Part shown: positions 1,861 to 7,644 of the stretch, one piece after another
How the letters are laid out: each line of letters begins with the position of its first letter
Position numbering within the stretch: position 1 is the first letter of the stretch
NCBI GenBank assembly: GCA_022758935.1
Contig: JAEMQG010000007.1
Location: 1 to 8,607, forward strand
Length of the DNA: 8,607 nt
Source: Candidatus Nitrosopumilus sp.
GTDB taxonomy: Archaea > Thermoproteota > Nitrososphaeria > Nitrososphaerales > Nitrosopumilaceae
Direction of reading: 5' to 3'
Notes under the pieces: generated by a model
What the model saw: only the letters and a program-made list of their open reading frames with translations
What the model was told of the DNA's origin: nothing
Databases searched by the model: none
Position numbers and translations under genes: made by a program

Positions 1861-2130
1861 ATGAGAAAAGTAAAAAGAGTAAAAATATCAGCATATAAAC
1901 GCAAAGCAAACAAAGTAAAAGAACATTTTAGAAGATTAGATGAATTTCACCAACTGAATGATGGTGGTCAGGGTGTAATTGATGTGATTAATGCTATTGG
2001 ATCGGCAAAACCTGAAGTTAAAACTACATTAGCGATTGATGAACAAACTGGAACAATCTTAAAGAATATAGGTTATACTCTTGCTGGTGCTATTGTTTTA
2101 GGTGCTGTGATCAGATTAAAAGCAAAATAA
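1861..2130 (+). CDS. Small basic protein with C-terminal membrane span
   Basis: An 89-aa protein with a strongly basic first 26 residues (MRKVKRVKISAYKRKANKVK and following), an acidic/polar middle, and one hydrophobic segment at about residues 69-84 (NIGYTLAGAIVLGAVI) ending RLKAK. The layout, a nucleic-acid-like basic head plus a membrane anchor, is typical of small proteins linking genome and internal membrane in membrane-containing phages; that role is inferred. It follows the lysozyme gene by 72 nt with an A-rich leader and no Shine-Dalgarno. Its last codons lie in a 17-bp direct repeat (2115-2131 and 2191-2207). It is the last gene before the terminator at 2249-2277. Confidence 0.6.
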   Translation: MRKVKRVKISAYKRKANKVKEHFRRLDEFHQLNDGGQGVIDVINAIGSAKPEVKTTLAIDEQTGTILKNIGYTLAGAIVLGAVIRLKAK

Positions 2131-2207
2131 ACAATCAGCACTGGTGTCAGCTGGTGGATCACCTGATCAGCTGTAAAATCTAAAAATCATATTAAAAGCA
2201 AAATAAA
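2115..2207 (+). repeat. 17-bp direct repeat pair
   Basis: ATTAAAAGCAAAATAAA occurs perfectly at 2115-2131 and again at 2191-2207. The first copy encodes the last residues and stop of the 1861 gene; the second is noncoding. Between them lies the hairpin at 2148-2173. This could be a short duplication or the footprint of a recombination event. Confidence 0.7.
2148..2173 (+). repeat. Stem-loop with CAGCTG arms
   Basis: CAGCTG at 2148-2153 can pair with CAGCTG at 2168-2173; an alternative inner hairpin pairs GGTG (2153-2156) with CACC (2160-2163). No T-run follows, so it is not a standard terminator. It lies between the two copies of the 17-bp repeat, shortly after the 1861 gene. It may protect the 3' end of the message or be a DNA-level signal. 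Confidence 0.45.
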
Positions 2208-2248
2208 AAAATCTATTTGGTTTCTGAATTTCCGACATAGGTTAATTT

Positions 2249-2277
2249 AACTATCTCAAAAGGGTAGTTTTTTTTTT
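2249..2277 (+). terminator. Rho-independent terminator after the 1861 gene
   Basis: The arm AACTATCT (2249-2256) pairs with GGGTAGTT (2262-2269), with two G-T wobbles and a five-base loop, followed by an unbroken T-run to 2277. It ends the transcription unit that includes the lysozyme gene. Confidence 0.7.
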
Positions 2278-2308
2278 GCACATACCTTACTAACATACCT
2301 TACATTTG
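2276..2308 (+). promoter_or_regulatory. Bacteroidetes-type promoter for the putative small RNA
   Basis: TACATTTG at 2301-2308 matches the -7 consensus TAnnTTTG; a TTG at 2276-2278 can serve as the -33 element with a 22-bp spacer, at the long end of the usual range. No coding sequence follows for ~450 bases, and a terminator lies at 2459-2487. The -33 TTG overlaps the end of the preceding terminator T-run. Confidence 0.5.
2280..2303 (+). repeat. Tandem 13-bp-period repeat inside the promoter (operator or iteron candidate)
   Basis: ACATACCTTAC occurs perfectly at 2280-2290 and 2293-2303, a 13-bp period. Both copies lie between the -33 and -7 elements, the second overlapping the -7 box. A protein bound here would block the promoter. 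Two copies are too few to call an iteron array with confidence. Confidence 0.6.
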
Positions 2309-2311
2309 TTC

Positions 2312-2331
2312 AAAATCAGTTTAAAATCAGT
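2312..2331 (+). repeat. Short direct repeat AAAATCAGT
   Basis: AAAATCAGT occurs at 2312-2320 and 2323-2331, an 11-bp period (about one helical turn), at the expected 5' end of the putative small RNA. Confidence 0.4.
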
Positions 2332-2342
2332 CAAAAATTGTG

Positions 2343-2397
2343 ATGAATTAGTACTTATTTAGTTCAAATTTGTACTGAATTTACTAATGAATTAGTA
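2343..2397 (+). repeat. Dyad and direct repeats (operator-like)
   Basis: ATGAATTAGTA occurs at 2343-2353 and 2387-2397. The second copy is half of a perfect palindrome, TACTAAT-GA-ATTAGTA (2382-2397). AGTAC (2350-2354) and GTACT (2372-2376) add a small hairpin. TCAGGCA is repeated at 2403-2409 and 2424-2430, 21 bp apart. The cluster could bind a dimeric repressor or form RNA structure within the small RNA. Confidence 0.5.
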
Positions 2398-2458
2398 TAT
2401 ATTCAGGCATAAAAACAACAAAATCAGGCAAAAATCTGGCGATTGGTCACCTGATTTC

Positions 2459-2487
2459 AAGCAAATCTTAACTGGTTTGCTTTTTTT
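2459..2487 (+). terminator. Rho-independent terminator of the small RNA
   Basis: AAGCAAA (2459-2465) pairs perfectly with TTTGCTT (2476-2482), with a ten-base loop and a T-run to 2487. It starts one base after the hairpin at 2421-2457. No gene ends just before it, which supports a noncoding transcript. Confidence 0.7.
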
Positions 2488-2707
2488 ATTAACAAATTAT
2501 TACACTATTTTATTAAAATTATGCTTGTTTGAATATCAATCTTTTATGTTTTTTAGCTTAAATAATCACTTTAATTGAATGTTGATCCAGTATTGAAATT
2601 TGATTGAAAATAAATTTGGAACGTAACTTTTTTTTTTAGAGTATTGTGTAGTCGTAACAAAATTAACTGGATCTAAAAACACATAAAACAAGCACTAATT
2701 TTTTTAA
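2488..2707. other. AT-rich gene-free stretch
   Basis: I see no gene here; the open frames are at most about ten codons. It contains an 11-base T-run at 2627-2637, CGTAAC twice (2621-2626 and 2653-2658), and a spaced inverted repeat GATCCAGT (2584-2591) / ACTGGATC (2666-2673). A TAAATTTG at 2611-2618 resembles a -7 box but lacks a well-spaced TTG. Its position between the small RNA and the orphan operon makes it a candidate origin region, without direct proof. Confidence 0.4.
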
Positions 2708-2715
2708 TAATTTTG
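2708..2715 (+). promoter_or_regulatory. Promoter -7 element for the 2762-3716 operon
   Basis: TAATTTTG matches TAnnTTTG and stands 46 bases before the ATG at 2762, giving a leader of roughly 40 nt. There is no TTG at the expected -33 distance, so the promoter may be weak or need an activator. Confidence 0.45.
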
Positions 2716-2750
2716 TAAACATAATACTCAACTAAAAAAAAACCAAAAAA

Positions 2751-2761
2751 ACCAATCGCCA
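2751..2761 (+). promoter_or_regulatory. Translation start region complementary to the small RNA loop
   Basis: ACCAATCGCCA directly precedes the ATG at 2762 and is the perfect reverse complement of 2437-2447 in the hairpin loop of the putative small RNA. There is no Shine-Dalgarno; the rest of the leader is almost pure A. Pairing would cover the site where the ribosome must land. Confidence 0.5.
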
Positions 2762-3025
2762 ATGAAAAATCAAAAAAAACTAAAAAAAATTTCAGATGCT
2801 TTTTATCTGATTAATTCAATTTGTTGTGATTTTCACGACAATCAAATGGATCGTAGTGATCCAAACATTGAAATTGCATATTGTCAATTACAAACTTGTT
2901 TAACTTTGCTAAAAAATGTACCTTTTTTAATAGGCAAAAATAATAGTAAACAATTTGAAATGGAAAATGGAAATAAACACACTCAATTTGATATGTCAGA
3001 AATAGAAAGGGAGGAATCAATATGA
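2762..3025 (+). CDS. Small orphan protein, first gene of the 2762-3716 operon
   Basis: An 87-aa protein I do not recognise. It begins with a lysine-rich stretch (MKNQKKLKKI), then a helical, cysteine-containing core (LINSICCDFHDNQ at about residues 17-29, CQLQTCLTLLKNV at about 41-53), and ends acidic (MSEIEREESI). No membrane span or signal peptide. The ATG follows the A-rich leader with the 11-base element complementary to the small RNA, so this gene is the likely target of RNA control. The stop overlaps the next ATG (ATGA at 3022-3025). A regulatory or replication-accessory role is inferred from position only. Confidence 0.55.
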   Translation: MKNQKKLKKISDAFYLINSICCDFHDNQMDRSDPNIEIAYCQLQTCLTLLKNVPFLIGKNNSKQFEMENGNKHTQFDMSEIEREESI

Positions 3026-3372
3026 TCCAGCCACAATCACACAAACCTGATCCAGCAAAAGCCAGTTTTAAACTGATCGTATATTTCAAAAATGGTCAAA
3101 GTAGAAAATTTTACAACTATCATTCAGTATGGAATAGTGATCTAAAAAAACCAGTTAAAAACGAACTGGTTGGATTGCGAAAACTGGAACGATTGGTTGA
3201 AACAAAATATCACGATCAGTATGATACTGCACTGATCTATCACATAGCTGGTAAACTGATAAGAAAGTATGTGTATAACAAACAAATCGTTTGTCAACCT
3301 ACCTTTTCAGTATGGGAAAATGATCAGGTTAAATTGAAATTAGGTACTGAACAAAAACCTGAATTATGGTAA
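3022..3372 (+). CDS. Orphan protein, second gene of the 2762-3716 operon
   Basis: A 116-aa basic soluble protein with no recognised family. Residues 15-35 read like two beta strands (ASFKLIVYFKNGQSRKFYNY), followed by a helical middle (LVGLRKLERLVETKYHDQYD, then ALIYHIAGKLIRKYVYN) and a C-terminal strand region. The tyrosine and lysine content would suit nucleic-acid binding. No HUH (His-x-His) or other rolling-circle Rep motif can be seen. It starts in the ATGA overlap with the 2762 gene and its end overlaps the 3366 gene (ATGGTAA), so the three are translationally coupled. It is a candidate for an unrecognised replication protein, at low confidence. Confidence 0.6.
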   Translation: MIQPQSHKPDPAKASFKLIVYFKNGQSRKFYNYHSVWNSDLKKPVKNELVGLRKLERLVETKYHDQYDTALIYHIAGKLIRKYVYNKQIVCQPTFSVWENDQVKLKLGTEQKPELW

Positions 3373-3716
3373 ATTTAAAAGTAGTGATTAGATCAGGTGA
3401 TCTAAAACCTTTGTATCAGTCTATCTTTTTAGCACTATCAGAAAATTTAGATAGTGTATATTGGGTTGATTTTTACAATATCAATTCCTTAATTGATAAG
3501 ATGAAACGTAAAAAAAGTGAAGATTTTTATTTAATAGCAAAGGACAAAAAAATTACTTTAAAATTTGATATTAATGAATCTGAATCATATCGTGTTTTGT
3601 GTTTAAAAAAATCAATTATTTGGGAAGATGTTTTTTTTACTTTAATTAATCGTGATGTGATCCAGCAACTTGATATTCAAACACACGAACTTAAACGAAT
3701 AATTGTTGAAAATTAA
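3366..3716 (+). CDS. Orphan protein, third gene of the 2762-3716 operon
   Basis: A 116-aa soluble protein I do not recognise. It looks alpha/beta: an N-terminal strand (LKVVIRSGDL), a helix (YQSIFLALSENLDSV), a lysine-rich helix (IDKMKRKKSEDFYLI), a strand pair (KITLKFDI, YRVLCLKK) and a C-terminal helical tail (THELKRIIVEN). No membrane span and no catalytic motif. Its start overlaps the end of the 3022 gene by seven bases. It is the last gene before the three stem-loops at 3724-3834. Equal length to its neighbour does not reflect obvious similarity. Confidence 0.6.
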   Translation: MVNLKVVIRSGDLKPLYQSIFLALSENLDSVYWVDFYNINSLIDKMKRKKSEDFYLIAKDKKITLKFDINESESYRVLCLKKSIIWEDVFFTLINRDVIQQLDIQTHELKRIIVEN

Positions 3717-5092: not shown

Positions 5093-5686
5093 ATGAAAAA
5101 AACAAGACGTAAAAAAAGGATTTCAAGTCCAAAGAGATTGTCAGCTGGAAGATCAGTAAAAAGATTTACCAAACGCAAACGCAAAGGTTTGTCTGAATTA
5201 TTTTCACCAAGTACTGCAATCGCTGGAGCTAAAACTATTGGTGCTGGTGCTATTGGTGGATTGATTTCAGGAATAGCAACAAAAATGTTAACTGATCAAA
5301 AACCTTTAACACGTTATGGTTTACAAGTAGGTGCTTCGTTCATTACTTATGCTTTGTTAGGATTTCCGTCAATGGCAAGTGGTATGGCTGGTGGCTTTGT
5401 AGCTTTGGAAACTGCTAAAATGATAGATCAAAGTTCAGCTATGAATGAAGATTCAGACATATATGCTGATCCTGATGCAATCAACCAACTACCAGCTATG
5501 ATGAGTGAAAATGGCGATCCTATCACATTAGCACAATCAGATGAGGGAATGGTTTACTTGAATGAAAATACTGGAGAAGTTACATTAGCTGAAGATGTAT
5601 ATCTTCAGGAAGATGTATATCTTCAGGAAGATGTATATCTTCAGGAAAATGATTCAATTTATCCTGAATACGCAACCGAATACTAA
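5093..5686 (+). CDS. Basic two-span membrane protein with EDVYLQ repeats
   Basis: A 197-aa protein. The first 31 residues are extremely basic (MKKTRRKKRISSPKRLSAGR, then SVKRFTKRKRK) and should contact nucleic acid or lipid head groups. Two Gly/Ala-rich hydrophobic segments follow, at about residues 41-63 and 77-106. The C-terminal ~90 residues are acidic and hydrophilic, including three perfect tandem EDVYLQ units at about residues 167-184. A genome-to-membrane link in an internal-membrane virion is a reasonable inference. It is coupled to the 4564 gene (one-base gap) and followed 37 bases later by the first capsid candidate. No match to a named family is visible. Confidence 0.65.
   Translation: MKKTRRKKRISSPKRLSAGRSVKRFTKRKRKGLSELFSPSTAIAGAKTIGAGAIGGLISGIATKMLTDQKPLTRYGLQVGASFITYALLGFPSMASGMAGGFVALETAKMIDQSSAMNEDSDIYADPDAINQLPAMMSENGDPITLAQSDEGMVYLNENTGEVTLAEDVYLQEDVYLQEDVYLQENDSIYPEYATEY
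5591..5644 (+). repeat. Three perfect 18-bp tandem repeats, each a hairpin
   Basis: GAAGATGTATATCTTCAG occurs three times in a row (5591-5608, 5609-5626, 5627-5644). Each unit contains GAAGAT and ATCTTC, which pair as a six-bp stem with a GTAT loop. The array keeps frame and encodes EDVYLQ three times in the 5093 protein. Confidence 0.9.
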
Positions 5687-6465: not shown

Positions 6466-6918
6466 ATGGATAATTATTTAGCTAAAAAATTAGGACAAAT
6501 TAACGTTCGAAATTCAGGATTTGGAAAAACAAATTCAGCTCACCCATTACAAAATATGGGTTACACTTTAGATCAGGTAAAGTCACTGGTTGACAATGCT
6601 GAAAAAGTTATTGGAATCAATTTCACTTCGATTGCTGGTACTACTCAACCAAACATTCAGATTCCAGCTACTGCAAAGTATATGGTTGGGTTTGCTTTTG
6701 CTGGTGCTGGTGCTACAACTGATACCTTTTCTTTGTTAATAAATAATGAAAGGGCGATTGATAATGGATCAGCACAAGCATATCAGATCAACACTGGTCG
6801 ACCTGATACAGCATATTTTCAATTTTTTAGACCGGTTGCCGGTGCTACTGCTATAAATTTAAATTATACTTCTACTGCTGGAGGAACTGCAATCGTATTT
6901 CAACTAATTTACATTTAA
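6466..6918 (+). CDS. Small beta-rich virion protein, related in part to the 6922 product
   Basis: A 150-aa protein. Residues 1-50 include a short amphipathic N-terminus and a helix (YTLDQVKSLVDNAEKVIG); residues ~50-150 are beta-rich with many Gly, Ala and Thr, consistent with a single jelly roll or similar sandwich. Residues 78-98 carry FAGAG, then DT, five residues, NN-x-R-x-I, a motif also found in the 6922 protein. The ATG follows a long A-run, 20 bases after the terminator T-run. Three bases separate its stop from the 6922 start. Minor capsid, vertex or second shell protein is the likely role; this is inferred from composition and context. Confidence 0.6.
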   Translation: MDNYLAKKLGQINVRNSGFGKTNSAHPLQNMGYTLDQVKSLVDNAEKVIGINFTSIAGTTQPNIQIPATAKYMVGFAFAGAGATTDTFSLLINNERAIDNGSAQAYQINTGRPDTAYFQFFRPVAGATAINLNYTSTAGGTAIVFQLIYI

Positions 6919-6921
6919 TTA

Positions 6922-7644
6922 ATGTCACAAATTTTAAGTCCAAAGATTGAACAACTGGCTTTTCAAGGCAAATGTCGGTGGGTAGTTTTTAATACTGGTT
7001 ATACCAGTGCTATGACCTTACCTTGTCCAGCTGGTGGATTTATACTACTTCGACAAATTATATATCACCCTTTTTATCAGGGTGCTAATCGAAATGCTCA
7101 ATTACTTAATGTTGCTCACCAAATTAGTATTTGTGAACAAGGAACAAAGACAGAATTAATATATCAATTTCGTGATCCTATTGGTCAGGTTACTGATCTG
7201 AATGGTGCTGGTATTGTACACAATGTTGCTACTTCAAACGCTTTGATTGTAGAAACTTTTGCGACATACAAACAAAATGTAAACATTGACATTCTTAACA
7301 TTCCTGATGTCAGTGCTGGTGCTTATGGTGGTGCTGTTGCTTTTCAAACCAATGCTCAAGAACGTCCTTTGCCTTTGGGTTATGGTGCAACTGCAACCAT
7401 TCCAACATTTGATATTTCAGGTGCTGGAACTGAAACCTACTTTCCAGCTGGTCAGGAACGTCTATTTGCTGGATTGGTGTTCGCTGGTGCTGGTGTTCGT
7501 GATACTCTTCGATATAATTACAATAATGCAAGACAAATTCAAACTGCAACTGCTGGTGACATTGATCGCCAATATCAATTTCCCCTGATGTCATTTGGTT
7601 GTTGGGTGTTTAATATACCGATCAGTGAATATCTTAATTACTAA
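6922..7644 (+). CDS. Beta-rich virion protein, second capsid or vertex candidate
   Basis: A 240-aa protein with a largely beta composition and no membrane span: WVVFNTGYTSAMTLPCPAG, FILLRQIIYHPFY, HQISICEQG, ELIYQFRDP, NALIVETFATY, LFAGLVFAGAG, FGCWVFNIPISEYL. Length is close to small double-jelly-roll proteins (PM2 P2 is about 270 residues, from general knowledge), but it could also be a single barrel with insertions. Residues 187-206 share FAGAG...DT-x5-NN-x-R-x-I with the 6466 protein, suggesting the two share a fold or a duplicated domain. It is packed close to both neighbours (3 bases upstream, 11 downstream). Major capsid or penton protein are both possible. Confidence 0.6.
   Translation: MSQILSPKIEQLAFQGKCRWVVFNTGYTSAMTLPCPAGGFILLRQIIYHPFYQGANRNAQLLNVAHQISICEQGTKTELIYQFRDPIGQVTDLNGAGIVHNVATSNALIVETFATYKQNVNIDILNIPDVSAGAYGGAVAFQTNAQERPLPLGYGATATIPTFDISGAGTETYFPAGQERLFAGLVFAGAGVRDTLRYNYNNARQIQTATAGDIDRQYQFPLMSFGCWVFNIPISEYLNY

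Follow-up and report, generated by a model that had tools for sequence, protein, structure and literature searches.

A candidate c4-like translational switch: a predicted small RNA complementary to a neighbouring gene start in a small phage-like contig

The closest described systems are RNAs of phages and other mobile elements that act on nearby genes of the same element, as set out in passages of the sources cited here. In phages P1 and P7, translation is blocked by c4 RNA, whose loops pair in the region of the ribosome-binding site (PMC12197685, passages); the pairing partner is the target mRNA, and one loop partly covers that site (passages of PMC5320573). The title of a cited reference names c4, icd and ant as genes of one operon. 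The c4 RNA is about 77 nt long, is cut from a longer transcript and carries two pairing loops (excerpts of PMC5320573). The CI RNA of P4 is encoded within the region that it controls and pairs with nearby same-strand sites, terminating transcription via two sites, seqA and seqC (extracts of PMC4825925). According to other extracts of that source, IsrK of prophage Gifsy-1 is encoded ahead of its target in the same transcript unit; this small RNA pairs with the orf45 leader, and its binding favours translation of anrP. RteR of the Bacteroides element CTnDOT, about 90 nt long, is a Bacteroidetes mobile-element small RNA that acts on that element's operon, affecting expression within the tra operon; the passages on RteR in PMC7366714 do not state start-codon pairing.

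The window analyzed here is a complete contig of 8607 nt (C89), in which a predicted RNA at 2315–2487 (+ strand) carries a hairpin complementary to the start region of the operon at 2762–3716. The likeness to c4 is that of a phage RNA predicted to block the translation of phage genes through loop pairing at the ribosome-binding site, drawn in this case from sequence and energy only. Unlike c4, the contig's RNA has one pairing site, and a promoter-like box and terminator of its own are predicted for it. Members of the C4 family are cut from a longer transcript by RNase P. No Rfam C4 match was found at E ≤ 1 in the window or at E ≤ 10 in 2240–2830. The contig's RNA shares with P4 CI RNA an origin close to same-strand target sequence but has a single site, located at a start codon, and whereas IsrK binding favours translation, repression is proposed here. 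Given the c4, P4 CI RNA and IsrK precedents, the arrangement is already known in kind. The preliminary description had presented it as a new kind of circuit, a claim that is not supported, as c4 works likewise and P4 CI RNA and IsrK are adjacent cases in the passages cited. A limited search of the phage small-RNA literature found no comparable case in Bacteroidetes phages among the records listed, and the main text of the review PMC12197685 contains no word beginning with "Bacteroid".

The contig belongs to a bin of 1.6 Mb that is archaeal: ribosomal protein L24e was found in this bin (85% complete), and a search of it for bacterial L19 gave no match. Misbinning is the simplest explanation for its place there and the most likely one. 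The contig could instead come from a virus that infects the archaeon, and the promoter argument, which is built on a Bacteroidetes box, would then fall away. Because the contig sits in an archaeal bin, we can only infer its host and promoter type. Its look is bacterial, with 13 terminator-like sites against 2.9 expected. The Bacteroidetes −7 box consensus, TAnnTTTG (passages of PMC7366714), has five intergenic copies on the + strand where 1.1 would be expected, a number equalled in 4 of 1000 shuffles; over the whole + strand the excess is mild (11 versus 7.0, with as many in 20 of 200 shuffles). In searches of the bin's relatives with the protein encoded at 6922–7644, the window alone matched (1 of 151 genomes; 1 of 398 in the phylum). 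Size, gene layout and a weakly jelly-roll-like protein model suggest that the contig is likely a phage, probably of Bacteroidetes. Its 17 ORFs counted as genes all lie on the + strand. G-rich GGT repeats are visible by eye at both contig ends (8422–8607 and 1–394), possibly within one gene encoding a linker rich in Gly and Thr. The contig may therefore represent a circular molecule that was opened within a repeat; no exact terminal repeat of 10–199 nt was found. By eye, GAAGATGTATATCTTCAG is also seen as an 18-nt unit repeated three times in tandem at 5591–5644; every copy holds an inverted repeat, and the array lies towards the end of the 5093–5686 gene, in its reading frame.

No named viral relative was found, nor any relative in the phage and plasmid records. 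The 6922 protein has 55 matches, mostly on short contigs and one of them the window's own cluster, and none of the 55 carries a Pfam domain. It is a conserved, unannotated protein whose structure model is weakly jelly-roll-like, and it is probably a capsid protein. Confidence in the model is low (pLDDT 70); its viral matches are weak, and its one PDB match at E ≤ 0.001 is a plant nucleoplasmin-like domain (query TM 0.25). For the protein encoded at 2762, the model (pLDDT 80) returned no structure match at E ≤ 0.001. Pfam and PHROGs, searched with 10 proteins, and NCBIfam, searched with 9, gave no family above its cut-off. Two alignments were built, A1 from the 6922 protein (the window plus 36 of the 55 matches) and A2 from the 2762 protein (the window plus 11 of 12 matches, P0067 being left out); neither these nor the 1033 protein found a relative of solved structure by sequence. 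In IMG/VR, a relative was confirmed for none of the 6922, 3022, 1033 and 7656 proteins, nor for A1 or A2, and neither alignment recovered a relative from GTDB genomes. Besides the window, A2 gave one weak match among 400 genomes of the bin's order (L006, E 7.5e-4), which was rejected; the ORFs around it are CheY-, PRC- and CorA-like by eye. An exact-pattern search of IMG/VR with the leader joined to the first codons returned a single contig (L008), in which the pattern is internal to a long coding sequence instead of preceding a start. The corresponding search with the hairpin core returned seven contigs that were taken as chance, one of them (L010) inspected through its ORF list. A tblastn search with the 6922, 3022 and 1033 proteins against a phage set containing FLiP (Finnlakeviridae) gave no match, and in a direct comparison with FLiP five genes (107–1861) had nothing better than E 0.17 among the matches listed.

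The predicted RNA lies in the largest gap of the contig (2131–2761, 631 nt), which contains, in order, a terminator-like hairpin, a promoter-like −7 box, a stretch free of usable ORFs, a hairpin and a terminator, with the operon start 274 nt further on. The upstream hairpin with its T-run (2250–2277, + strand; 7 pairs, 2 of them G–T) was recognized by eye and would end the upstream transcript; it is absent from the output of the terminator scan, for which its G+C is too low. A −7 box, TACATTTG, follows at 2301–2308 (+ strand), with TTTG at 2275–2278. It agrees with the Bacteroidetes consensus, the host itself being a deduction, and sets the putative start of a 173-nt RNA at 2315. The promoter-like boxes of the preliminary description find support in this Bacteroidetes −7 box; a sigma-70 scan, giving 28 sites against 46 expected, lent the claim no support. 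The direct repeat ACATACCTTAC, present twice (2280–2290 and 2293–2303, + strand), could be an operator over this promoter; when the gap was shuffled 500 times, an exact repeat as close arose in 3 cases. The stretch 2315–2487, described earlier as gene-free, indeed contains no ORF of at least 40 aa (ATG, GTG or TTG start), the frames across the loop having been read too. Its 3′ boundary is an intrinsic terminator found by the terminator scan (2459–2487, + strand), a 9-pair stem at 2459–2482 plus T-run directly beside the hairpin, as first described. The 173-nt unit is thus predicted from a promoter-like box at one end and a terminator at the other. The fold of 2310–2490 has an energy of −36.4 kcal/mol (z −2.9), and 2 of 200 shuffles are equally stable. 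Near the start of the predicted RNA, AAAATCAG recurs at 2312, 2323 and 2420 and ATGAATTAGTA at 2343 and 2387; these repeats might serve as operators or iterons, or might pair with the hairpin stem in an alternative fold.

The hairpin that would present the pairing core spans 2421–2457 (+ strand). The eight-bp stem claimed for it is present, AAATCAGG at 2421–2428 facing CCTGATTT at 2450–2457 with 21 bases between them, and its pairs are predicted with probabilities of 0.63–0.84 in the 173-nt RNA. Between the arms lies the core TGGCGATTGGT (2437–2447, + strand), the exact reverse complement of ACCAATCGCCA (2751–2761, + strand), the final 11 bases ahead of the ATG at 2762; a check of the letters bore out this complementarity. 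The leader is predicted to be open, at an opening cost of 0.26 kcal/mol. The loop had been described as exposed, but inner pairs probably leave its 21 bases half closed: the predicted hairpin with inner pairs has an energy of −9.9 kcal/mol, against −6.1 for the form with an open loop, and within the 173-nt RNA the core is divided between two inner forms of about 0.4 each. Ten of the 11 core bases have unpaired probabilities of 0.42–0.50 and the remaining one 0.94 in this RNA.

The target site abuts the start codon of the first of three overlapping genes of the 2762–3716 operon, all on the + strand and of unknown function. The first (2762–3025) encodes 87 aa and has 12 protein matches, on contigs of up to 8498 nt, 11 of which span 75–100% of its length; it has no family above the cut-off. 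The second (3022–3372, 116 aa) has three matches, one being the window's own cluster, and the third (3366–3716, 116 aa), taken from the ORF list, has no family above the cut-off. A promoter-like −7 box, TAATTTTG, at 2708–2715 (+ strand) is a possible operon promoter and would place the operon start near 2722; no TTG lies within 30 nt upstream of it. The sequence GGGAGG (3009–3014) is Shine-Dalgarno-like, lies 7 nt ahead of the ATG at 3022 and is unusual in the contig; it may be mere coding sequence of the 2762 gene. In Flavobacterium johnsoniae, initiation is favoured by A at −3, −6, −12 and −13 (passages of PMC6847099), and 11 of the 17 starts of the contig have A at −3. The 2762 leader retains A at −12 and −13, but position −3 is C and position −6 is T, and the last 11 bases of this leader include six G or C, the joint highest among the 17 starts together with the doubtful TTG start at 107. 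The bases at −3 and −6 fit start-proximal bases serving another purpose, an argument for a pairing role and not proof of one.

The loop–leader match was originally chosen by eye out of the whole window, and, as the window holds 101 same-strand complementary 11-mer pairs, a match of exactly 11 nt is by its length alone weak evidence. These pairs, and the five occurrences of GCGATTG on the + strand, speak for a coincidence, in which a small RNA or a mere terminated transcript from 2315–2487 is real and either has its targets in the host or is a by-product. We scored pairing as duplex energy plus the cost of opening both partners, a weighting preferred because plain duplex energy ignores the folding within each RNA; the energy script used hand-entered stacking values and crude G–U values and left bulges out. 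On this scale RNA 2315–2487 and the 2762 start reach −13.5 kcal/mol, made up of a duplex energy of −18.2 and opening costs of 4.4 for the RNA and 0.26 for the leader. This ranks first among the 17 gene starts, with the runner-up at −5.1, and the site is the best weighted pairing of the RNA in the contig, the next standing at −7.3. No dinucleotide-shuffled RNA among 1600 reached −13.5 at any of the 17 starts (the best scored −13.15), and the reversed RNA gave −4.0. Shuffles lose the repeated words of the genome, and real 173-nt windows were therefore scored as well (844 in all, 826 after leaving out 18 that touch the core): one of them reaches −13.5 and three reach −12, the strong windows lying at two sites and pairing with the first codons of gene 1033. 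When the core was scrambled, the co-folding gain fell from −11.9 to a mean of −6.0, and none of 300 scrambles was as good. Without accessibility the picture differs: the 2762 start is only ninth among the 17, and 532 of the 821 remaining + strand windows form as good a duplex with the full RNA. When the 21-nt loop is taken by itself, one other site, the windows at 6806–6826, is stronger (−22.2) than the leader (−19.8). Two further pairings were set aside, that of 2315–2327 with its operon complement 3065–3077, which scores just −6.0 when weighted, and that of 2468–2478 with 3148–3158, which lies inside the terminator and is not among the best 20 windows listed. Those 20 include no second pairing site near the 2762 start. 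That one other real window pairs equally well with a start is consistent with coincidence; the shuffles, the rarity of such real windows and a match that stops at the base ahead of the ATG, in a loop–leader setting, argue against it, and we consider it unlikely without being negligible.

The gap could also be a DNA element, a replication origin or operator array, the complementarity being meaningless or acting in single-stranded DNA. Its size, the close direct repeats (ACATACCTTAC, AAAATCAG and ATGAATTAGTA, in two, three and two copies), a GC skew that is flat over about 2000–3250 and the failure to recognize a replication protein in any of the genes scanned would suit such an element, but a terminator with T-run and a promoter-like box are features of transcription, and we hold this reading to be improbable. 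Slightly less probable again is a switch in cis, in which read-through RNA from the 2301 promoter folds the hairpin core onto the 2762 leader. Although the minimum-energy fold of 2310–2830 includes the core–leader helix, and IsrK of Gifsy-1 is a case that combines a terminated small RNA with an mRNA made by read-through (extracts of PMC4825925), a terminator and 263 nt separate the RNA from the target site here, and the promoter-like box at 2708 would give the operon a start of its own. A same-strand RNA masking the start of the 2762 operon, as first proposed, is the best-supported reading on the strength of the weighted pairing, the shuffles, the −7 box and co-folding. To the specific claim that 2315–2487 is a separate RNA gene pairing with the 2762 leader, and likely blocking ribosomes there, we assign about an even chance, and we judge the system to be a probable c4-like translational switch.

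In the masking model, the RNA would be made from its own promoter at 2301, possibly controlled at the overlapping ACATACCTTAC pair, and would act in trans on the operon transcribed from about 2722. First contact would be made between the apical GATTG (2441–2445) and CAATC (2753–2757). The full 11-base pairing would then mask the 2762 start and repress initiation, keeping ribosomes off the 2762–3716 operon, the host ribosomes being taken to rely on open A-rich leaders. In this way the phage would control how much of the 2762–3716 products is made. The RNA would also act on the same leader in a closely related phage entering the cell, as an immunity element of the c4 type. It is a speculative and rather unlikely extension of this model that a c4-like immunity switch evolved independently in small Bacteroidetes phages, with a stand-alone RNA masking an A-rich, Shine-Dalgarno-free start and with the 11-nt core and leader forming a changeable code that sets which related phages shut one another out. 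If the masking model is true, same-strand antisense switches of the c4 kind would extend to little-studied small phages, and antisense control would be seen to act where ribosomes locate the start independently of Shine-Dalgarno pairing.
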